A stretch of DNA of 59,241 nucleotides. Origin: Candidatus Absconditabacterales bacterium. Lineage in GTDB: Bacteria; Patescibacteriota; Gracilibacteria; Absconditabacterales; Absconditicoccaceae. The notes beneath the pieces were generated by a model. It was given only the letters and a program-made list of their open reading frames with translations. It searched no databases and was not told the DNA's origin. How positions within the stretch are numbered: position 1 is the first letter of the stretch; every line of letters begins with the position of its first letter. The stretch lies in NCBI GenBank assembly GCA_025057375.1, contig JANWWO010000010.1:1-59241 (forward strand). The letters are read 5' to 3'. The translations under genes and the position numbers were made by a program. Below are positions 1 to 59,241 of this stretch, piece by piece.

Positions 1-2854
1 TTGAACCAGATCCAAGAGGTGGCACATTGGTATGTGTCGTTGGTGTCACAGTCAAATAAGGATTTCTACAGATATTGCCATATGTATCAGCGACCATGCC
101 AGAGGGACATGTTGCTTGACATTGCCTATTGTGTGCAAAGAATCATGATGGACATGAGAACAGACATAATCCTTGATGCTCAACTTTGTCTGCTGGACAG
201 CCAGGTAGACAGGTTCCATTATCATTGACTGTTGCACTGGGACATACGTCTTGACAGATACCATTATGGTTTACTCTTGGCGCAGGACATTGATCAAGGC
301 ATGTTCCATTATTATTAACTTTGGGTGCTGGACATGATGTTTCACAGATCCCATCATTATTGACCCATCATGTTGGACAGACTGATTGACATTGATCAAG
401 GTATCTGACTGTTCCTGATGGACAGGTTGGTCAGGGAAGACATTGGTTGGTGAGTGTATTGAATAATTGTCATGGAGCACATGATCATGATGTTGTTATG
501 CTGCCTACTAATACATCTCATTTCAATGCAAAAGATCATGTCATCGTTGTAGAAATTGTGGATGGTGCTGTATAGATAAGGTTGTAAGCTCCTGATTGTA
601 CAACATTGATATTTGCTGGTCATGTGCCGATTATCGCTGATCATGAACGAAGTGTCCATCATCAAGGTAAGGTAAACAGTCATCCTGTTGATGTTGTGAG
701 TGTTTGAGTTCCTGTAGATGAAGGAGTTACTCAGGAAACAGTAAGTGGTGTGATTTGAAAATACCAAAGTCTACAAACGCCTGCGTCATTGACGGGTCTT
801 GCAACTGGGCAGGACGAAACACAGGTGGTGCCGTCTCTGAGTCCTGATGGACATGAAGACACACATTGTGTACCATTGAGAAATTGTCATGATGGGCAGC
901 TACTGGATGTGGTAATTGATCATGTTTGTACTTCACCTTTGAGCGCAAATATTCATGTCATTGTTGTAGAAATTGTGGATGGTGCTGTATAGATAAGGTT
1001 GTAAGCTCCTGATTGTACAACATTGATATTTGCTGGTCATGTCCCGATAATGACTGATCACGAACGAAGTGTCCATCATGCAGGAAGATTAAATAATCAT
1101 CCAGAAAATATAGTCAGTGTTTGTATGCCTGTTGATCAAGGAGCTACTCATGTTATAGTCAGTGGTGTGATCTGAAAGTGCCATTGTCTACAGATTCCAC
1201 CATCATTGACAGGTCTTGTGACTGGGCATGATGAGACACAGGTATTCCCGTCTCTGATTCCTGATGGACAAGAAGCGACACATTGTGTACCATTGATAAA
1301 TGTTCCTGTGGGACATACTGTGACACAGGTGTTTGTTGTGGTGTCAGTAAATGCTGGACATGTTCATGTACAGATTCCATTATTATTATAAGGTCTGGCA
1401 GCAGGGCAAGTTCGTACGCAGATATCGTTGTCTCTGAGTCCTGATGGACACGAAGACACACATTGTGTACCATTGAGAAATTGTCATGATGGGCAGCTAC
1501 TGGATGTGCTAATTGATCATGTTTGTACCTCACCCTTGAGCGCAAATATTCATGTCATCGTTGTAGAAATTGTGGATGGTGCTGTATAGATAAGGTTGTA
1601 AGCTCCTGATTGTACAACATTGATATTTGCTGGTCATGTGCCGATTATCGCTGATCATGAACGAAGCGTCCATCATCAAGGTAAGGTAAACAGTCATCCT
1701 GTTGATGTTGTGAGTGTTTGAGTTCCTGTAGATGAAGGAGTTACTCAGGAAACAGTAAGTGGTGTGATTTGAAAATACCAAAGTCTACAAACACCCGCAT
1801 CATTGACGGGTCTTGCGACTGGGCAGGATGAAACACAGGTGGTGCCGTCTCTGAGTCCTGATGGACACGAAGACACACACGTTCATCAATTATTGAACTG
1901 TGGATAAGTAAATGAACAGTTGGCAGTCGATCATCCATGACTTCCTTGACAGCTTCGTGTTCTGGTCGAACCACAGGTTGTTTGATTATTATCATTGATT
2001 TTTGTTCATGCATCACACGTTCATGCTGCAGTTCCACATACTCAGTTTATTGGTGTCACAGAACATCAGTATGTCTCGTAACATGACTCTATATACCCAC
2101 ACCCATCAGATCTGGTTCCCCGTCCACAGCTGTTAGAACAAGGTGATCGATTTGGTACACATGTTCCTCATCATCATCCTCCTCATCATCATGAACATGG
2201 TGCTGTCGTACACGATCTTATATTCCCACAATTACTAGTTTGAAATCCTATATTTCCGCCACAGGTTCCTTCACATGGTCCCCAGGAAGTGTCTGTACAT
2301 GTAGTACATCAGACTGTCTCGTAACATGACTCTGCATTCCCACATCCATCAGATCTGGTTCCCCGTCCACAGGTAGTAGAACAAGGTGATCGATTTGGCG
2401 TACATGTCCCTCCTCATCATCATCCTCCTCATCATCATCCTCCTCATCATCATCCTCCTCATCATCATCCTCCTCATCATCATGAACATGGTGCTGTCGT
2501 ACACGATCTTGTGTTCCCACAATTACTGGTTTGCGTACCAGGATTTCATCAACAGGTTCCTTCACATGGTCCCCAGGAAGTGTCTGTACATGTAGGTGTA
2601 CACATTGGATGATTCATTAATTGATATTGATCATCTAGCATACAATTTCATACAAGGTTTACTATAGCCGTACAACTTAATGTTGTTCATATACATCCAC
2701 AGTCGTCTGGACATCAATCCGCAGGTCAAAATGCCTCAACTGTTGTCGGGGTCACTGCTACTGTCGCAATCACAGCAAAGGGAACAATCTGTATGGGGAA
2801 ATGAGAGAGTAAAAGAACCAGACTCGAAAATGCGGAAAAAAGCTTTTTGGTCAT
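1..2854 (-). CDS. Giant secreted cysteine-rich repeat protein, N-terminal part (3' end beyond window)
   Basis: With TGA read as Gly the minus strand is open for 951 codons from ATG at 2854 to the window edge. The start is chosen because it begins a clear signal peptide (MTKKLFSAFSSLVLLL, then a second hydrophobic run ending near TVEAF). Next come two thrombospondin-1-like blocks (WGPCEGTCGG, SPCSTTCGRGTRSDGC), each with a polyglycine linker. Then follow three copies of a module that joins a beta-rich stretch (FQITPLTVSGV, ANINVVQSGAYNL) to furin/TNFR-like cysteine motifs (CPSGQFLNGTQCVSSCPSG), and finally tandem short Cys units such as CPAPKVNNNGTC. Regular C-x-P and N-G-x-C spacing implies many disulfides and an extracellular adhesin or stalk role, which is inference. 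The published family is not recognised. Both other minus frames and all plus frames carry TAA/TAG stops. Confidence 0.85.
535..1882 (-). repeat. Three near-identical ~330-bp in-gene direct repeats
   Basis: Copies lie at about 535-868, 952-1285 and 1549-1882. The shared string beginning ttgtagaaat starts at 547, 964 and 1561, giving offsets of 417 and 1014. Copies one and three are almost identical at the nucleotide level; the middle one has diverged around 1080-1160. In protein terms each copy is a beta-rich domain between CPSG..NGTQC cysteine motifs. Such identity suggests recent duplication or gene conversion and makes the region prone to assembly collapse. Confidence 0.85.
2408..2482 (-). 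repeat. Polyglycine tract built largely from recoded TGA codons
   Basis: On the minus strand this is five tandem copies of TGATGATGAGGAGGA (the last ends GGG): 25 consecutive glycine codons of which 15 are TGA. A shorter paralogous tract of nine glycines lies at 2165-2191 in the second thrombospondin-like block. The 15-bp unit is a micro/minisatellite, so tract length probably varies. The tract sits between Cys-rich blocks and probably acts as a flexible linker. Confidence 0.9.
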
Positions 2855-8691: not shown

Positions 8692-9930
8692 ATGTCATCA
8701 CTTCTTTGTTGCCTTGCTCCGATGGACTGATTTACTGATGCAGCATGTCGTTCAATATTTTTTCGCATACGAAAACAATACGGAAATCACACAAAAACGC
8801 AATATAAAATGCGAACAGAATTTATGAATGCAGATGGGTATCTCAGACAACCCTCGAGAATTGTCCATCATCTCCTTTCATGCTCCGACACACCTTACCC
8901 TATTGTCCAAATTTACGGAGGGAACAGAGAAACACTTGTAGAGGCGTGTCATGATATCTGTCGCAAGTACCCTTTTTTTCCAGGGATTGAGCTCAATATT
9001 TGATGCCCGTCTCCAAGCGTCATGAGCTGTGAGGCGGGAGCTGGGATGATGAAAGATAAAGCCAAGACGCTGGAAACAGTAAAACAGATGAGCGAAGCAT
9101 GTGCTACATATGGGATGCCCTTTTCTATCAAAACCAGACTTGGACTGACGAGCAATGATAAACAAGATCAAATCGATTTTATCCATCGTGCAGTTCCTTA
9201 TTGTTCGATGATTTCTGTGCATGCCAGGACATTCAAACAGGGACATAGTGGAGACGTCGATCGAGAGACCCTATATCAAATCAAAGAGCACTTTGGTGAT
9301 ACAATAACCTTGATCGGTAATGGTGGCATCACCTCACGAGACGATATGCGATCCAAAGCAAAAAATCTGGATGGTATAATGATCGCCCAAGCTGCGATTG
9401 CCAATCCTTGGATTTTTACTCCCCATATCCCAACCCCACAGGACAGATACGATATCATCAAAGATCATTTTCTTTTGATGCTTGGGCAAGAACACTGGAT
9501 GAATGAACAAAAAAAAATCTTGACCGACGACCCCACAAGCGTTTTGATGATGCCTTCAACAGATGAATTGCGTTCACGTTGAGTTGCCGTCAAACAATCG
9601 TATGCTGACCAAAAACTTTTTTCTGTCCTCGAATATCGTAAGCATCTCTTTGGGTATCTCAAAACACTGGTATGAGCAAAAGATCTCAAAGTCAAACTTG
9701 CAACCATCACTGATCCAAATCACGTCAGCGATGCACTTGATGAGTTTTTTTGCAAATTGAGCGTCATAGAAATGAATCTGTCTAATCGTTGAGAATCACC
9801 TATCAAAAAAATACTGCATCGTTCTACGAACCTATCCCACACGCAATATAGCAATCAAAAGCATCCACATCACTTCCGTATACATCTCCATGAAAGCTCA
9901 TCTTATACAGAAACAGACACCTCATTATAG
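8692..9930 (+). CDS. dus: tRNA-dihydrouridine synthase
   Basis: 412 residues. N-terminal FMN-binding motif CCLAPMDGFTDAACRS (Gly of MDG is TGA), then MNADGYL, QIYGGNRE, the active-site LNIGCPSPSV, KTRLGL, the phosphate-binding SVHARTFKQGHSGD, and TLIGNGGITS...DGIMIAQAAIANPWIF. It reduces specific uridines in tRNA with NAD(P)H via FMN. The usual MIgRG motif reads MIAQA, so a common Arg is missing. The C-terminus runs about 80 residues past the usual end. CGA at 9262 lies in GDVD-CGA-ETL, where Dus proteins have ADW, supporting Trp. The start is the ATG that places LAPMDG at the usual distance. Confidence 0.9.
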
Positions 9931-21925: not shown

Positions 21926-22534
21926 ATGACAGTAACTGATAACACACTTAATACTGATAACACACTTAATACTGATAATACACTCAATACATCCTCATAT
22001 CCATGAGACGAAACAAGATCTCCACAAGAGCAATCTTCACAAGAACAGCGTCTCACTGAACAGCTCATCAAACTCCAAAAAGACTATGCTGATCTCCAAG
22101 AAATCTGCAAAAAAGCACAAAATGATTATATTATGCTCAAACTCGATTTTGATCAGTACCAAAATCGTATGGAAGTCGCAAAGCAGGATCACAAAATCCA
22201 GACACTCATTGATGTCGTAAAAAAATTTCTGCCTTTTATTGATTGATTGGAAAAATCACTTGCTACAGTAAAAGACTCAGAAGATAATCCTCTTGTAAAA
22301 GGTGTAAAGATGACCTATGACAACTTTTTGACCGTTTTAGCAGGACTGATGATTTTCCCCATTGATACAACACTTCCTCTTGATTCCCTTCTTCATGAAC
22401 CAGTGGGGACAGTACCCGTCACCGATGAAAAGCAAAAATGACAAATCATTTCATGTGTCCAAACATGATTTGTTTATCGTAATGACCAGACAATCAAAGT
22501 TATCCAAACAGCAAAAGTCATCGTAGGAGCATAA
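21926..22534 (+). CDS. grpE: GrpE nucleotide exchange factor
   Basis: 202 residues. A disordered N-terminus is built from a tandem 18-bp repeat (TDNTLN three times), then a long coiled coil (LTEQLIKLQKDYADLQEI), a four-helix segment (FLPFIDGLEKSLA) and the C-terminal beta domain with VGTVPVTDEKQKGQI and VQTGFVYRND. GrpE releases ADP from DnaK. No dnaK or dnaJ is adjacent. A terminator follows 35 bp downstream, so the gene appears monocistronic. Confidence 0.9.
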
Positions 22535-28119: not shown

Positions 28120-28294
28120 AATAACCTTAATTAAGGTATATGCATATGATCCAGACTATCTTATACAATACTTTGATAATAATGAATTCCGTCCTCTCCA
28201 ACATCATGTCAAAGAAAAAACATGACACTTTCTCTTCCAAAAAATATAGATCATTATCAAAAACAGACGATTTTTTATTACTCTCCTCATCTCA

Positions 28295-30809
28295 ATGCAA
28301 CAAATATGACTACTTCTCAGCACATTTTTGCTTCTGATACCAATCATTTCGTATGCATCTGATTGGACAATTGATCCATGATTTACAGCAAATCCATGAG
28401 CTGAATGATCTCCACGTCGCATTCGTTCCCTCGCATCAGATACGCAAGGATACATCATTATCGGTGGAGATTTTTTTCGCTACAATGGCATAGCCAATAC
28501 CTGAATTATCAAGATTGATGCACAAGGAACAGTCCTCTCCTGATTTCTTGTATGAGAATGATTTGATAATGTCGTTGAAGTCGTCAAAACAGATAGCCAG
28601 GATCGTATCTATGTTGGAGGAGATTTTTCATCATATCATGGAGAAACAGTCTCTCGCCTAATTCGTCTTCTCCCAGATGGAACACGCGATACGAGTTTCT
28701 CTGTATCAGTCAATAATAGAATTCATTCACTTCTAATTGATGAAACTAACAACCATATCTATATTGGTTGACGATTTTCTCAAGTCCAATGACAACCAAG
28801 AAATAGAATCGCAAGGCTGTTTCTTGACGGCACACTTGATACAAGTTTTGATCCATGAGTATGACCAAATAGTACCGTAAGATGAATCGCATGAGGCCCA
28901 AATAATACAATTTATATTGTTGGAAGGTTTACAACAATTGGAGGCGTATCTCGTTGATGAGTGGCACGTCTTGTATCAGGCTGATCGCTAGATCTCAGCT
29001 TTGATCCATGATCGTGAGTAGCATGATGAGTTCCCAATGTGCACGATATAGCAAGTCTTCCCGATGGCAGTATAGTAATATGAGGAGATTTTGTTACCTA
29101 CCAAGGAGTGCCAGTTAATGGAGCAGTATGGATCAATCCTAATGGTTCAATCAGACATACAATTGTATCATGAGAACCAGTAAGAACATACAATGCGGTC
29201 ATTGTACAACCAGATGAAAGTATCGTTATCTGATGAGAATGATGAATTTTTCTTCGTTTTGATCGTCATGGTATTCGTGATACACCAACAACACAAACAG
29301 CATCATCAATTATCCATTCGCTCATGTACTATCAACCTACCCATTCTCTCTATGGCGGATGAGTTTTCGCAACCCATAATGGCCAGACAAGAAGATGAGT
29401 GACGAGTATTCTCCAGTCGCCAAGACGAGATAGTCGTCCAGATTGATTGGTATTTAACGAAACCTTTGCTACAACTCCATGAATTGTCGAATCTCCATCT
29501 CTCACAGTGGGATGAATCACAACATGAATTACTGTCACGGTCTCTACTTGATGTGAGATATCACTCAATAATGATACTTTTGATACCGGACCTCGCTATC
29601 GGATCCAACACAATGATATAATCAAGATACGCACCATCATACAAGATTACGCTATGCAGAGAGTTTGTGTCATTACATGAGGTCTCACTGTATGAGTACG
29701 AACTTGAATCGTGTGAAGTTTTTTAGATATTATATGGTCATGATGAAGTACCCAACTACTCAATTCCTGACACACTATCATTACATGACGAATACTCGCT
29801 ACATGACAATGGAATATCTCTTCACCAGATAATTGGCAAATAGCAAGTAATTCATGAACTTTTGGTAGTATGGCAAGTGTATCGTCATGAGACATCATCA
29901 TCCTCTCATGACATCTTCTCTGACCAACAATACTTCTCATGACATGAACAACATGATGGCAAACACAACCGTTGACGATATCACTAGCACTTTCTACTCC
30001 CTCTCTCACACCAGTCATATGATCACCATCTACTATCCAACATTCCTGATCTCCATGATGATGATCCGCCCGAAGATTACTTATTGACGACTGTCCAAAA
30101 GGAGATTTTTCACCAAGTTATTATGATAAACGCTGTGATACAACACAAGACTCTATCACTAATGCACTTGATGACACGATACAAACACATACTGATACTC
30201 CTATACAAATACACGTTCAAACGGGGTCATGAGATAATAGCATGCCGGCATGTTGGCAACGTGCTGGCAAGGACGATCAATCAATGCTCCTCGTCTATCA
30301 ATGGCTTATTACTCAATGATTATCGCATACTATTGATGATTTCTGTCCGTATGATCAAATCACAAGAGAGATTGCTGCATCATTGTTGGTTCATATAATC
30401 AATATACAAAATACCATGACACCCTCTATTCATCCACTTCGTTCATGCTTGTATCGTGACTGGATGCAAATAGCTCCAAAGCATCACAATGCTACTCTCC
30501 GTTTGTTTATGTCAATATGGCATCATGGGACAAACAGCTCGAGGAACACCTGATAATTTTTTTAGGCCACAAGACCCTATTACGAGAGCCCAAATTATCA
30601 CTATCCTCTCAAGAATACTCTATGGAAATCGTGGGAACTGGAGCTCGATCAATCAATCATGATGGCGATATGATGGGCATAAAGACCTTTTGACACGTGC
30701 AGGAATTATCACTAATATCAACCCATGACTCCTTGAAAAAAATGAACCACTTTGACGATTCCTTCTCATGATCATAAGAGCAACAATGTACAATAATCAA
30801 CTAAAGTAG
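28295..30809 (+). CDS. Secreted delta-60-repeat beta-propeller protein with SLH-like tail, frameshifted
   Basis: The signal peptide MQQIGLLLSTFLLLIPIISYAS starts at ATG 28295. Repeated blades of about 50 residues carry the delta-60 pattern (SDTQGYIIIGGDF, DGTLDTSFDPG, DLSFDPGSG). A beta-rich middle (ILATGQWNISS) and a Cys-containing region follow. The first frame ends at TAA 30554 (753 residues). From about 30490 the +1 frame encodes a good S-layer-homology domain (YGIMGQTARGTPDNFF, then ITRAQIITILSRIL) down to TAG 30807. Removing one T from CGTTTG near 30510 joins them. The SLH domain would anchor the propeller to the cell wall. Many blade glycines are TGA. Confidence 0.75.
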
Positions 30810-38174: not shown

Positions 38175-38584
38175 ATGAACTGACATTATGAGATGCGTGA
38201 GATATTTTTTGCACAATACCTGAAATGTAAAAAATATTTTATTTCTTTTGACAATGTTGAAAATGTACAAATACGAATCAAAGAAACACTCAAATATATA
38301 GAAAACAATAAAAAAAGCGAGTCATAAGAAATGATAACCAATTCATAGGGATGATAGCAGTTGATTATTAATATATTAAAACCTGAAATAAGACTATGGA
38401 TCAGTAACAACAGCAATGAAAATGATACTGATTCTCTGCTATAAAATTTATACAATCATTACATCCCAATCAAACACTTATATATACTGCTGATGCTGAT
38501 AATAATGCAAGCATACAACTCATTCAAAAAGCTTGATGAATATTGCTATCAACTGATAAAGAATACATATACTCACTAAATTAA
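38175..38584 (+). pseudogene. GNAT acetyltransferase relic
   Basis: ATG 38175 opens a 50-residue frame (REIFFAQYLKCKKYFISF, then IKETLKYIENN) that stops at TAA. Later pieces in shifting frames read ILKPEIRLWIS and GYGFSAIKFIQSLHPNQTLI, then ADADNNASIQLIQKAGGILL, which together follow the GNAT order (acceptor strand, KPE-R-WI, G-x-G-Y-G acetyl-CoA loop, D-N-x-S-x-x-L-x-x-K-x-G). Several TAA/TAG stops interrupt it. The assignment is moderate because the pieces are short. Confidence 0.5.
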
Positions 38585-38624
38585 TAGATATTTTTTTTCT
38601 TTTTTATTTTTCCCCCTACCACCC

Positions 38625-39926
38625 ATGTCTCACACCCTCATTTCTAAAATTTCCGCTGACCATGTGGGTCACACCATCACCGTCAAATGACGAGTACAAA
38701 CCATCAGATCATCAGGAAAGGTCTCGTTTATCGAACTTCGTGATGGATCTGGCTATATGCAATGTGTCATCGAAGCAAAAAACTTTGATGAAAGCAGATT
38801 TACCGAAGTCTCTACCATCGGTCTCGAATCGTCGCTCTCCCTCACGTGAACCGTCTCCAAACACCCAAAAAAGGATGAGTACGAGCTTCAAGTCAGTGAT
38901 TTTTTTATCTATCAAAATACCAAAGATTATCCCTTGGGGACTAAAGCCGATCACGGTCCAGAGTTTTTGTTTGACCACAGACATCTCTACCTCCGTTCCA
39001 AGACCCAAAGAGCCATTCAACGCGTCCGTGACACCATTATCCACGCAACCTATGACCGAATGCGTGACAATGGTTTCACCAAAATTGATGCACCAATCTT
39101 CACACCCAATGCCTGTGAAGGCACAACCGAGCTGTATAGCGTCGAACACGTCAACGGTGAAACCATGTATCTGAGTCAATCAGGACAGCTGTATATCGAA
39201 GCTGCAATGTATAGCGTAGGACGTTGTTTCGATTTTGGACCGGTTTTTCGCGCTGAGAAAAGCAAGACCCGCCGTCACCTCAATGAATTTTGGATGATGG
39301 ACGCAGAAATCCCCTTCATCCAGCAGGAAGAAAATATGCAAATCCAAGAAGATTTGCTCAAGTACATCATTAGACAAGTCTTGGAAAAAAATCACACTGA
39401 TTTCGTGACATTAGAAAGAGATGTGACACCACTTATGAATATCGTAGATAAACCATGGGAAAGAATAAAACATGTTGATTTTGTTGATGAATTGATCGCT
39501 AAAGGGTTTGATGTCAAACAAGGTGATGATATTGGATCAGATATTGAAATGCAATATATGTCCATGGTAGATACACCTATCTTCCTCACTCATTTCCCGA
39601 TGGGTATCAAAGCATTTTATACCAAAGAAGATCCCAACATGCCAGGCTATGGATTATGTAGTGACCTCCTTGCACCAGAAGGCTGTGGAGAAGTGATTGG
39701 AAGTTCGACGAGAGATGACAACTATGACGTTTTATTACAAAAAATTAAAGATCATAAACTTGATCCTGCAACTTTTGACCGGTATCTTGATCTAAGAAAA
39801 TATGGTTCTGTGCCACATGCAGGATTTTGATATGGATTGGAGAGATTGGTAAGATGGTTTTGTGGACTACACCATATCAGAGAAACTATCCCTTTCCCAA
39901 GATACGCAAATAGAATTAGACCATAA
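38625..39926 (+). CDS. asnS: Asparaginyl-tRNA synthetase
   Basis: 433 residues. The N-terminal OB fold ([20 protein letters not shown], first Gly from TGA) is followed by class II motifs: [53 protein letters not shown] (motif 2) and [12 protein letters not shown] (motif 3, with Gly from TGA). The [10 protein letters not shown] string and CEGTT mark AsnRS rather than AspRS. It attaches Asn to tRNA-Asn. CGA at the YD-x-M position replaces a residue that is aromatic in relatives. The mrr gene follows after 29 bp. Confidence 0.93.
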
Positions 39927-47415: not shown

Positions 47416-50298
47416 CTATTTTTTGTTCTCTTCATACGGCAGGGAACCTTGGTCATCAGAATTTTTTTTCAAATACACTACTCTTCAGCATACCTTTCAA
47501 TATGGTGAGAGATAAACTCGTGCATTTTCACAGAAAATATCTCTATACCATCATGATACAGATATTTTTCATTGGACATTGTGTAAAGGAGGTTGTCAAA
47601 GAAGAGTATACGGAAGATAGCAATCATGATACGATCAAGGAAATTGGTGAGAATCTCCTGTCACTACAAACGTACATCCACTAAACACATTATTATCAAA
47701 ATACTGTGCAATACGTTCGCATATAGACTCCCCATCCCCACTAAAGAAAATAGTAGAGTTGCTTATCGATTCTTTCGCGAACAAATCAAGATATTCTTCA
47801 TTTTTGGTGGATGCACAGTGTCAGAGATGCTCCTGCCACAGCCTAGGAAGAGCAGAATCGTTCAATATAGGAAGAATAAAATGCTTATATTCTCGATCAA
47901 CGGATGCGAAAGAAAATTGTTGTGCAGATCACATATACACAACCTCCAACTTACTTGTACCGTTTTTGGTTATCACATGACGATAAATAATAACATCCTG
48001 CATCTGAAGCGGGAATACATTACTATCGGGATTTAGTGGACGAGGCTCTCCTGACAGAGGAGGGAAAAGAAAACGATCAGTCACTATCGATCAATCCTTT
48101 GTTGTATATCAAGAATCCAGAAGAACACAGTTGTCAATATAATAAGGTCTTCTTCTCCTACTTGTTACACTGTCCGTTCAAGCCAACAAAGAAGCGTTTA
48201 TAACAGATGATCATATAGTGACTAAACAATCTGGATGGGATGGTAGATTATTCGTAGCAAGAATTCCTTGCACATGAAAATATGACAAATACATAAGTGT
48301 CGAGGGAAGCTGATATGCCAATCATCCTATGATAGCAAGTGATCTAAGAGAGGGGAATTGCGACACATCAATAATACCTCCATCGCTACCACATCACATT
48401 GTGACGGTTATAGTATGAATAGTTCATCTTACCGATTCTGGCAACAAAGGTATATCAACATCCTCAACAACAAGTGTGTGAGGAGATCAGTGCATAGACA
48501 AAAATCATGGTTGCTCAGAGGATGAAGACAAAGACAGTGGTGGTTGTTTTATAACTAACGTCTCACCATTATTTCTATATTCATAGACTAATAACTGAGT
48601 ACCAATCCATGGCTTTTGCCTAATAGATCATCTATCGACCATCTGTCAATCTCACGAAGAAGCTACAATACGATAGTAATTTTTTAAAAGCACAGAAAGG
48701 AATTCAACGATCTTATCCTTATGGTTTGTATCTGTCCCATCACCATTTATAAACAACAATGCACACTTTTTAATAAATCATCAAACATCATAGTATCCCT
48801 GTACAAAAGGAATACCCAACTGATCACATAGGGGGTAAAGATTATTGAATCTATCCTCACAAGGAATCGTCAGATAAAACAAATCGTGTTGATATCTAGC
48901 AAGAAGTGAATCCTTTTGTATAATTAGCTTCAAAAACTCCTCTTCCTGTTGTCGTTTTTCATGAATATCACGGTATCATAGTGAATCAGCACTTCATCAG
49001 GAAGGGGTATTTAAAGACATAATAGAATGTGGCAATGTAATGGGACCTCAAAATTGTCGTCAATTGCTACGAGCAATAAACTCTGTTCACGATGATGCAA
49101 TCGAAGGAGTTAAATCATAATATTGCACTCGTGGCTGGGCGGGATTACCATCAACGGGAGGATCATATCATCACACTGCCATCAAGGCATGAGGATATGA
49201 TCATGGACTATCGAAAGATGGATATTCTGCGTCCACTCTATAGATAACAACAGGCAACAAACGAGCAAGCAACGACAAAAACGTAGGAATCGTAGTACAT
49301 ACACCTTGGATTCAAGGATATCAATCGATCAACGCGTTTGGAACCATCAAAACAGCTTCAGCATATCAAACTCAGTCACCGGGCTGCGCATATTGTCCTA
49401 CTGTTGACGAATAATTATACACTGAGTGCTTGAGCATGATCTGCACAATGGTTTCTATCTGTTGTTTTGGCGAAATTTGATCATCATCAATGATATAAAG
49501 AATCTCCGCTATCCATGGAAATTGTGGCATTGCTTGCTCAAGCAAAGCTCTTACCCTTTTAGTCTCGTGTGGATCATCGTTGGTTACTTTGTCAATAAAA
49601 GCAGGTTGAAATCGCAAAGGTAAAGGAGACACAGTAGAACGTCCAACGTACAAGATTGTTATTCAACTATCTGTAGAACATCATCTCTGTACTGTCAAAA
49701 TAGGAACACTTCAAGAGAATGCAAGATTAAAGGAATACGTATCGGGGAGAGAAATCGCTACTAGTTCTTCTCATAGTTGCAGAGGCAGAGGAATAACCTG
49801 CCCTGTCTTCAATGAGCTAAGTTTGAGTGTATATGTCGTTTGTCATGGTTCTTGTGGTAATTGGTCATTTTCCCCTAGTAGACGAAGTCATCAACGAACA
49901 GTCTGCGAATCTGTACTAGTCCATAATGTAGGAGCATGAGCATAAGAATCAGATAGTTGTCTAAAACCATAACACAATGGCTTGAGTCGACGTGGATGTA
50001 TCGAAAGCTCAAAGGGAAGTGTGGGTGATGTACGTGCAGCATCTACTCCAACAAGATAGTCGGCATCAAAAGACAATGATGGACGAAGATTTTTTTTGGG
50101 TAACTGAGAGATGGTAGATGCAGTATCCTTGATGGTATACACATTTGACGTATATGATATAATATCAGAGCCGGGAATACTCAAATTTTTTTGACATCAG
50201 CTGATAAAAAGTGAGCACAACGCAACTGCAATAAAATGCAGGCATTGACCCCTCTGAGAGAGGACATATTTATAGGCGTTATCCGGAATCTTGTTCAT
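47416..50298 (-). CDS. Large lipoprotein with transglutaminase-like domain
   Basis: 960 residues in one TGA=Gly frame. The signal peptide ends in a lipobox FISGCQ whose Gly is TGA. Around residues 325-420 a transglutaminase-like core shows GVCTTIPTFLSLLARLLP (Cys), SYPHALMAVGGY (His) and VQYYDLTPS (Asp) in the right order and spacing, so a papain-like protease or crosslinking role is possible. The rest is beta-rich, with several cysteines (TVTMGCGSDGG, SHPDCLVTIG). It lies convergent to the SbcC-like gene with 28 bp between stops. Confidence 0.75.
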
Positions 50299-50566
50299 AA
50301 AAATATAACAATAAATACAAAAACTGTCTAGTAGGCTATTTATTTTTGACAGAAAATGCAAGATATTTTTAACATTCCTTACTTATATTTTACCATACAC
50401 AACTAATAATAATGATAGGGAGCTTTATATCATATAATACATCATGGTGATAAGAAGCATATAACAAAAAAGAAAAAAAAATGCAAGCAAATACGTGTAA
50501 GGAAAAAAATAACGATCTACACATTGAACGGAACATGAAAGTCATGTCGTGAAATATGACACGTTC
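50299..50566. other. Upstream region of the transglutaminase-like lipoprotein
   Basis: 268 AT-rich bases between the lipoprotein start and the end of the broken gene. No gene is seen. It should hold the lipoprotein promoter on the minus strand. Confidence 0.5.
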
Positions 50567-57603: not shown

Positions 57604-59241
57604 ATGGGAGGACAAACCAATCCCAACAATCAAATAGAATATTGCACGTCTGCGGCAGAACATTTGCCTCCGGCAAAAAATCTTTTGCAAGATAGCAAAA
57701 ACACTATTGCTCAAGTGTTACAGTCTCGCCCATACAAAAAATTTTTTGCGACTGAAGTAGGCAAACAAGAAATCCTAAAGAATCTCAAAATATGAGAAGA
57801 TTTTGATGGTTTACAATTGAGACTCAATCAAGCAACAAAATACTTGAGACAATTTGGTGCACTTGCAGAAAATACGGATCTCAGCACAGAACAACAAAGA
57901 GCCATCATCAATGCACACAATCATTGCTGATCACAACCTGCACCTATCAGACAAGCATGACAATCTGATGAAGCATATGCCAAAGCATATAGCAGACGAT
58001 ATAACAAACTCATCGTCGAAAAAAAAGCTATCCTCACACAGGGGTGAGTATTTTCTCCTATCCAAGCAGATATCCTCGTTAGGAGTGGGGTGTGTGGGTC
58101 TCGAGAAGATGCCTTTGGTAAGCTCAATATCAAACAAGCTACAATAAAAGAGAGTATAGAAGCAAAAGGAGAAGAAGTGTTGTCAATCGTACAACATGAC
58201 CCTGATCTCAAGATATACTTCAGTGAATGATCAGAAAATGAAGAAAAGCTCATAAATGCATTAGTCAAATACTATGGGAGACAACAAGGAGACGCAAGCC
58301 CTGCAACAATCGTCGATGCGCTCAGGGATGTGTATACATACGATCCAGACGGTAATCAGTCGTTTCCTCTAAGAAAAAAGCTTCTCGAAAATAAGACAAT
58401 AGATATATATAATCTCTCTACAATTATACAAGAACACAGAAGAATTGGTAACGAAAAACTTAAGCAAATGAAAAAAAACCTCGCTGAATCAGACAAAGAA
58501 AAGGCCGTGCGTATCGAATGATTACCTGATAGATATGCCCTGTACGAATTACATTCTTACCCTGATTTGATGCGTGAAAGTGACCAATTGGATCATTGTG
58601 TGGGAAAATCAGATCATTATATCAATGAACTAAAAAAATGAAGAAGTAAAATCTATAGTATTCGCCATGAGAATGGCAAAAGTCTTGCAACAATAGAAAT
58701 AGTCAAAAATGGTGAATGATACACGATTAATCAATGATACACGATTAATCAATGCAAATGATATCAAGACAAACTATTCTCTGAACAAGCACCATGATAT
58801 GGGATAGTTGTAGAATGACTGAAAGGTATACTAAAGAAGAATACTATTACATGAATAACGTCTGATCTCCACTGATTTCTACATTCATGATCCTCTCTGT
58901 GGTCAAGTCTCACGAACCTCACAACACTGGATTTGAGGTTATATAAATGACAAATCCCCCCAGAGATAGGACAGCTTACGAAACTCACAACACTGAAGTT
59001 GGAGCGTTATACATGACAACTTCCCCCAGAGATAGGACAGCTCACGAACCTCACAACACTGAAGTTGACTTGATATGGATGACAACTCCCCCCAGAAATA
59101 GGACAGCTCACAAACCTCACAACACTGGATTTGAGCTGATATACATGACAACTCCCCCCACAGATAGGAAAACTCACGAAACTCACAACACTGGAGTTGG
59201 GGCGATATAGACGACAACTTCCCCCAGAGATAGGACAGCTC
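57604..59241 (+). CDS. PcfJ-domain protein with C-terminal leucine-rich repeats (3' end beyond window)
   Basis: 546 codons to the window edge, TGA=Gly. A helical N-terminal region (to about residue 290) is followed by a PcfJ-like domain: LMRESDQLDHCVGKSDHYIN (EG-x-x-x-x-HCVG motif), SKIYSIRHENGKSLATIEIV and a terminal Cys-Lys-Gly stretch, as in plasmid-encoded PcfJ. An 18-bp tandem duplication lies at 58717-58752. From about 58903 five 22-residue leucine-rich repeats begin (LTNLTTL, then GQLPPEIGQ). No signal peptide is evident, so it may be cytoplasmic or exported by another route. An in-frame start at 57577 (MFLFFPLYT) is possible. Confidence 0.75.
58903..59241 (+). repeat. 66-bp leucine-rich repeat array running off the window
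   Basis: The string acaacactg recurs at 58921, 58987, 59053, 59119 and 59185, exactly 66 bp apart, encoding 22-residue LRR units of the form LTxLTTLxLxxYxGQLPPEIGQ. Where most units have TGA (Gly) before CAA, the last has CGA, a one-base change. Confidence 0.9.

Follow-up and report, generated by a model that had tools for sequence, protein, structure and literature searches.

A run of 25 consecutive glycine codons, 15 of them TGA, lies near one end of the 59,241-nucleotide stretch of Candidatus Absconditabacterales DNA analysed here (the window). Our best reading, to which we give about three chances in four, is that this tract encodes a flexible tether and was lengthened by tandem duplication or slippage; its host would be a Cys-rich surface protein, probably with an SLH anchor. 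The tract is real, and it is not exotic, because strings of up to 64 glycines occur in many surface proteins of relatives. It is one example of a widespread linker type rather than a new mechanism. The useful extension is that linkers of this type recur in recoded lineages in association with anchor domains.

The glycine tract and its host protein

The tract occupies positions 2408-2482 on the reverse strand and comprises 15 TGA, 9 GGA and one GGG codon. Read as the reverse complement, it consists of five 15-bp units (TGATGATGAGGAGGA), each with three TGA codons followed by two GGA codons, except that the last codon of the fifth unit is GGG. Tandem Repeats Finder (TRF) reports the same array at 2409-2483 (period 15, 5.0 copies, 100% matches), limits that are shifted by one base from the phase used here. 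A sister tract of 9 glycines (6 TGA and 3 GGA) lies at 2165-2191 on the same strand, and the two tracts share one table-25 reading frame. Both had been described in a first-pass annotation made from the sequence alone, and the codon read-out and TRF bear that description out. Runs of this kind are not expected by chance: in 30 windows simulated with a dinucleotide-Markov model, the longest stretch of glycine codons was 4-5, compared to the 25 observed. An exact array of three units had no match in the genome and viral contig collections (from which the source genome itself was possibly left out), and a literature search for polyglycine in Gracilibacteria turned up no paper.

The host frame is open from base 2 to base 2911 of the contig (reverse strand, 970 codons in table 25). 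It is cut off by the contig start, and the C-terminus of the protein is therefore missing. The likely start is the ATG at 2854-2852, giving the N-terminus MTKKLFSAF (MTKKLFSAFSSLVLLLSHFPIQ...), and the translation of 2728-2854 contains a hydrophobic segment (MTKKLFSAFSSLVLLLSHFPIQIVPFAVIATVAV...) that looks signal-peptide-like by eye. Two cassettes follow on the same strand. Cassette 1 (2300-2590) contains a short Cys-rich module resembling thrombospondin type 1 repeats (TSP1-like), the 25-glycine tract and a second TSP1-like module (PN-CGA-SPCSTTCG-CGG-GTRSDGC, with two codons left untranslated). Cassette 2 (2063-2299), directly downstream, is a duplicate with 9 glycines in place of 25. The cassettes are 88% identical at the DNA level over the matched stretch and differ outside the tract by synonymous TGA/GGC and TGA/GGA exchanges. 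The rest of the protein contains Cys-rich repeats (CPSG...C) and a domain of about 95 residues (W[YH]FQITPL...) in three copies, all on the reverse strand: copy 1 at 1496-1780, flanked by the Cys-rich repeats, and copies 2 and 3 at 899-1183 and 482-766, within a 417-bp repeat reported by TRF. Differences between these copies concentrate at third codon positions (23/39, 14/29 and 32/61), which supports the host frame independently of stop codons. The possibility raised in the first-pass annotation, that the tract falls outside any coding region, can thus be set aside, and a polyglycine linker in which the TGA codons are glycine is the best reading of it.

The scan of the 970 codons with Pfam and NCBIfam found no family for the host protein, and no orthologue was found among 58 other genomes searched; its association with SLH domains is therefore by analogy. 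In particular, PF00395 (SLH) has no match in the 970 codons read, the C-terminus being off the contig. A 5'-open ORF elsewhere in the genome (G000:C16:3-728) ends in an SLH-like C-terminus (PF00395, 24.7 bits) and could be a candidate continuation of the focal protein. A paralogue in the same genome (L186:3470-6652) has similar Cys-rich repeats and SLH at its end.

Repeats are found elsewhere in the window as well. Both contig ends fall in repeat-bearing genes; positions 58909-59241, at the far end, hold 66-bp tandem repeats encoding units that look leucine-rich-repeat-like by eye. An 18-bp tandem repeat at 21935-21990, near an ORF start, encodes TDNTLN repeats.

Genetic code and UGA usage

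UGA is read as glycine in this genome by a dedicated tRNA-Gly(UCA). The tRNA gene (G000:C18:22343-22416) is labelled 'SeC (tca)' by ARAGORN, and is actually a normal tRNA of 74-75 nt with the anticodon UCA, G1:C72, C2:G71, G3:C70 and U73, judged by the glycine identity criteria of PMC8629427. Release factor 2 (RF2, prfB) scores above the cut-off in 93 of the 145 genomes of the class, and in neither this genome (97% complete, 21 contigs) nor any other of family f1; the same holds for families f14, f22 and f24, whereas most others have it. The single release-factor-type match in the genome is sub-threshold (2.3e-67) and RF1-like. In UvrA, 11 of the 13 alignable TGA sites fall on near-invariant glycines of standard-code relatives (glycine in at least 17 of 17-18 homologues, with one exception allowed at two sites).

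Besides UGA, CGA and CGG appear to be read as tryptophan. They align with conserved tryptophans, and never with predominantly Arg positions, in AsnRS (38691-38693, 39780-39782), Dus (9262-9264, 9337-9339) and UvrA; in the latter, one CGA site is Trp in 17/17 homologues, the CGG site is Tyr/Trp, and the remaining CGA sites are uninformative, though not Arg. G73 is present in the tRNAs with anticodons UCG and CCG (read by eye from their sequences). Table 25 supposes no other reassigned codon (CGA/CGG = Arg), which does not hold in this genome; the code found here agrees with the Absconditabacteria code in PMC8629427. Table 25 would thus mistranslate the focal protein, giving it six wrong arginines; CGA/CGG codons lie at 2390-2392, 2363-2365, 2147-2149 and 2120-2122. 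With tryptophan restored, the second module reads NWSPCSTTCGWGTRSDGC and is nearer to TSP1, yet it remains under the Pfam cut-off. Membership of PF00090 (TSP1) was rejected on score: the table-25 translation has no match, and the corrected one scores 13.6 bits, where 21.6 bits are required. Matches of the module in the PDB are to TSP1 domains only (TRAP and CSP, E 0.007-0.075). A single-sequence AlphaFold model of the two cassettes was uninformative (mean pLDDT 38).

The first-pass annotation had also held that translating the tract needs very efficient TGA decoding. This claim does not survive as a statement about the tract. Among the 1248 glycine codons of the window outside the focal gene, 491 (39%) are UGA, the commonest of the five, and in 12 ribosomal proteins it makes up 92 of 134 glycine codons (69%). 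Since UGA is favoured genome-wide, the 60% UGA of the tract is ordinary and calls for no special explanation: 15 UGA in 25 codons result from polyglycine combined with codon preference. A relative's 64-glycine run containing 40 UGA argues in the same direction. 'Very efficient decoding' describes the genome as a whole. The TGA share of glycine codons is uneven between genes, at 57/90 in 28250-30553 and 43/73 in 47419-50382, and 3/29 in AsnRS (38580-39923).

Polyglycine in related genomes

Relatives were surveyed with a pattern of 13 KGN codons, together with GGN patterns and frame checks. A pattern restricted to TGA and GGA was dropped, as it also matches the GATGAG (Asp/Glu) repeats of standard-code genomes. 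KGN matches that contain TGC, TGT or TGG (e.g. in G063, G046 and G064) were left out of the polyglycine counts; one listed match, G165:C61, contains TGT, and G165 has other, clean tracts. The 13-codon KGN pattern matched in 20 of 49 family genomes, and a reversed control did so in fewer. Read in frame, the family (f1) has 27 runs of at least 13 glycines, the longest being the run of 64 (in G003). Runs of 13-64 glycines mixing TGA and GGN occur in families f1, f14 and f22, in otherwise different proteins, and 19 of 40 recoded genomes in the class sample have them (hand count). Their codons are 375 TGA, 180 GGT, 171 GGA, 39 GGC and 17 GGG. All five glycine codons are used, so what recurs is the amino acid and not one DNA motif.

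Polyglycine is not produced by recoding, as standard-code relatives have GGN-only runs. For example, G025 has runs of 13 and 17 glycines encoded by GGN only (frame checked). A search for 13 successive GGN codons was positive in 27 of about 105 other genomes, a rate that is not closely comparable with that of recoded genomes because the frame was checked in G025 only and some of the matched runs are homopolymer G. TGA has joined a linker type that relatives make from GGN.

Shorter runs of 9-10 glycines are present in three other genes of the source genome. One of its contigs (L046:1-215, the start of G000:C6) opens inside a 30-bp tandem array that reads as Gly-rich (GGGGGNTGGG) or acidic (EEDEEEIQDD), and was left out of the polyglycine counts for its ambiguous frame. 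In another genome, L164:5599-6951 (G170:C30) encodes a 15-glycine run followed directly by CFIAGTTVRMADGTD, which resembles the beginning of a Hint/intein-type domain; in one of 45 scanned polyglycine proteins, Pfam finds a Hint-type family.

Association with SLH-like anchor domains

Many polyglycine proteins share a C-terminal region of about 170 residues, from which an SLH-like profile was built. A search with this profile found the domain in 20 of the 27 f1 proteins with runs of at least 13 glycines, a count that is partly circular, as some of these proteins had gone into the profile, and Pfam alone supports fewer. Pfam itself identifies SLH in 14 of the 45 polyglycine proteins, subtilase in 11 and right-handed beta-helix in 4. 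The glycines nearly always precede the SLH-like domain, usually by 20-80 residues; the order is reversed in G003. A query with the SLH-like and subtilase domains matched in 46 of 49 family genomes, typically several times in each. When loci were picked by this match and not by polyglycine, 23 had 60 aa or more of upstream sequence; 10 of these carried 8 or more consecutive glycines, and the longest run before the SLH-like domain ranged from 1 to 16. Two loci of the source genome (L048 and L049) have 9-glycine runs before C-termini that resemble SLH, where Pfam detects no SLH. The focal tract itself sits between Cys-rich modules, and no SLH domain was detected adjoining it.

Origin and function of the tract

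The reading that we favour can be set out in a few steps. A translated linker of 25 glycines would join two small Cys-rich modules near the N-terminus of what is predicted to be a secreted, repeat-rich surface protein. With UGA as the commonest glycine codon, the mixture of TGA and GGA is synonymous. The tract probably grew by slippage or unequal recombination of its 15-bp unit, a history suggested by the perfect repeats and by the sister copy with 9 glycines. Its role would be that of a flexible spacer, like the polyglycine beside SLH-like anchors in relatives. The order of codons is periodic clearly above shuffles in the focal tract and in those of G003, G151:C11, G162, G014, G083 and G036. 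Many shorter tracts show no such excess, and some tracts may thus have diverged or grown otherwise. The first-pass suggestion that the array can tune linker length is plausible, with indirect support from the 9 versus 25 glycines in the two cassettes, the runs of 1-16 and the periodicity of several of the longest tracts. A much bolder version, in which polyglycine arrays at the bases of SLH-anchored proteins are slippage-adjustable tethers across the lineage (a contingency-locus device made from a recoded stop codon), strikes us as quite improbable. If it were true, cells of one episymbiont-like population would show the same enzymes or adhesins at different reach.

Slippage could also have acted with no selected function behind it, expanding a TGA/GGA microsatellite in a glycine-tolerant loop as a neutral by-product. 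The perfect tandem array and the periodicity of the longest tracts fit such an origin, and the spread of 1-16 glycines over the 23 SLH-like loci suggests that length is loosely constrained. Nonetheless, we hold this account to be unlikely. Polyglycine recurs before SLH-like anchors in many genera, many codon orders are no more periodic than shuffles, and all five glycine codons are used; recurrence in one place, aperiodic codon orders and the full set of codons together suggest that selection has acted on the glycines and not on the repeat. Moreover, the same linker type exists in standard-code relatives.

The remaining alternatives turn on how the tract is read. It might act as a translational control element, in which ribosomes are delayed, or translation begins within the gene, because of the series of UGA codons or the five AGGAGG motifs. 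AGGAGG does occur at five in-tract positions; ATGATGATG comes after each of them in a different frame, which has an ATG after each AGGAGG and stays open for 95 codons. This is very unlikely to matter in a genome whose ribosomal proteins favour UGA for glycine, where translational pausing at the tract is itself unlikely. Furthermore, a Shine-Dalgarno-like motif precedes the ATG in none of the 13 ribosomal genes inspected (L185, G000:C18:78500-87770), nor in CTP synthase, and the ribosomal-gene leaders are T-rich. As these genes lack Shine-Dalgarno-like leaders, AGGAGG in the tract is probably inert and not an initiation signal. Finally, the array could be an artefact, or be read in another frame as an Asp/Glu (DDDEE) or Met/Arg (MMMRR) repeat. 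All three frames are open across it, and contigs of this genome often end in repeats (at the window's start and end, and at the start of C6). Against this stand the 970-codon frame with its third-position bias (other frames reach only 95-105 codons), the synonymous differences outside the tract in the duplicated cassette and the Cys-rich modules that carry on at both sides. We regard an artefact or another frame as extremely unlikely. The flexible tether remains our preferred reading. Polyglycine linkers also offer sharp targets for proteomics of UGA-glycine decoding, and for tests of tether-length variation in the surface proteins of recoded Patescibacteria.

Comparison with known systems

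Absconditabacteria and Gracilibacteria are known to read UGA as glycine (NCBI table 25; PMC4032931, PMC8629427). The present genome does not differ from these at the level of UGA: tRNA-Gly(UCA) is present, RF2 was not found and UGA is glycine throughout.

A closer parallel to the repeat itself is the gracilibacterium surface protein with hypervariable PTD tripeptide repeats (PMC6851277). Both cases involve a CPR bacterium with recoded UGA and a tandem repeat within a large protein that is predicted to be extracellular; in both, slippage is invoked and the assembly is fragmented at the repeat. The PTD protein, however, has 9-bp units without TGA and nucleotide variation shown at the read level, whereas the focal protein has polyglycine in 15-bp units, known from the assembly only. 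Periscope Proteins (PMC8201768) are surface proteins in which the number of repeats determines how far a domain reaches out beyond the anchored base. They are arrays of folded domains with demonstrated length variation, in contrast to the unfolded-type polyglycine seen here in a single assembly.

With respect to SLH-anchored proteins (PF00395), the focal protein, truncated as it is, shows no SLH, whereas polyglycine in relatives separates the SLH-like domains from an ectodomain (subtilase, beta-helix). Linkers that combine UGA with all four GGN codons have GGN-only counterparts in standard-code relatives, and they show that a reassigned codon can be taken up as a mere synonym even where it is packed as densely as possible.
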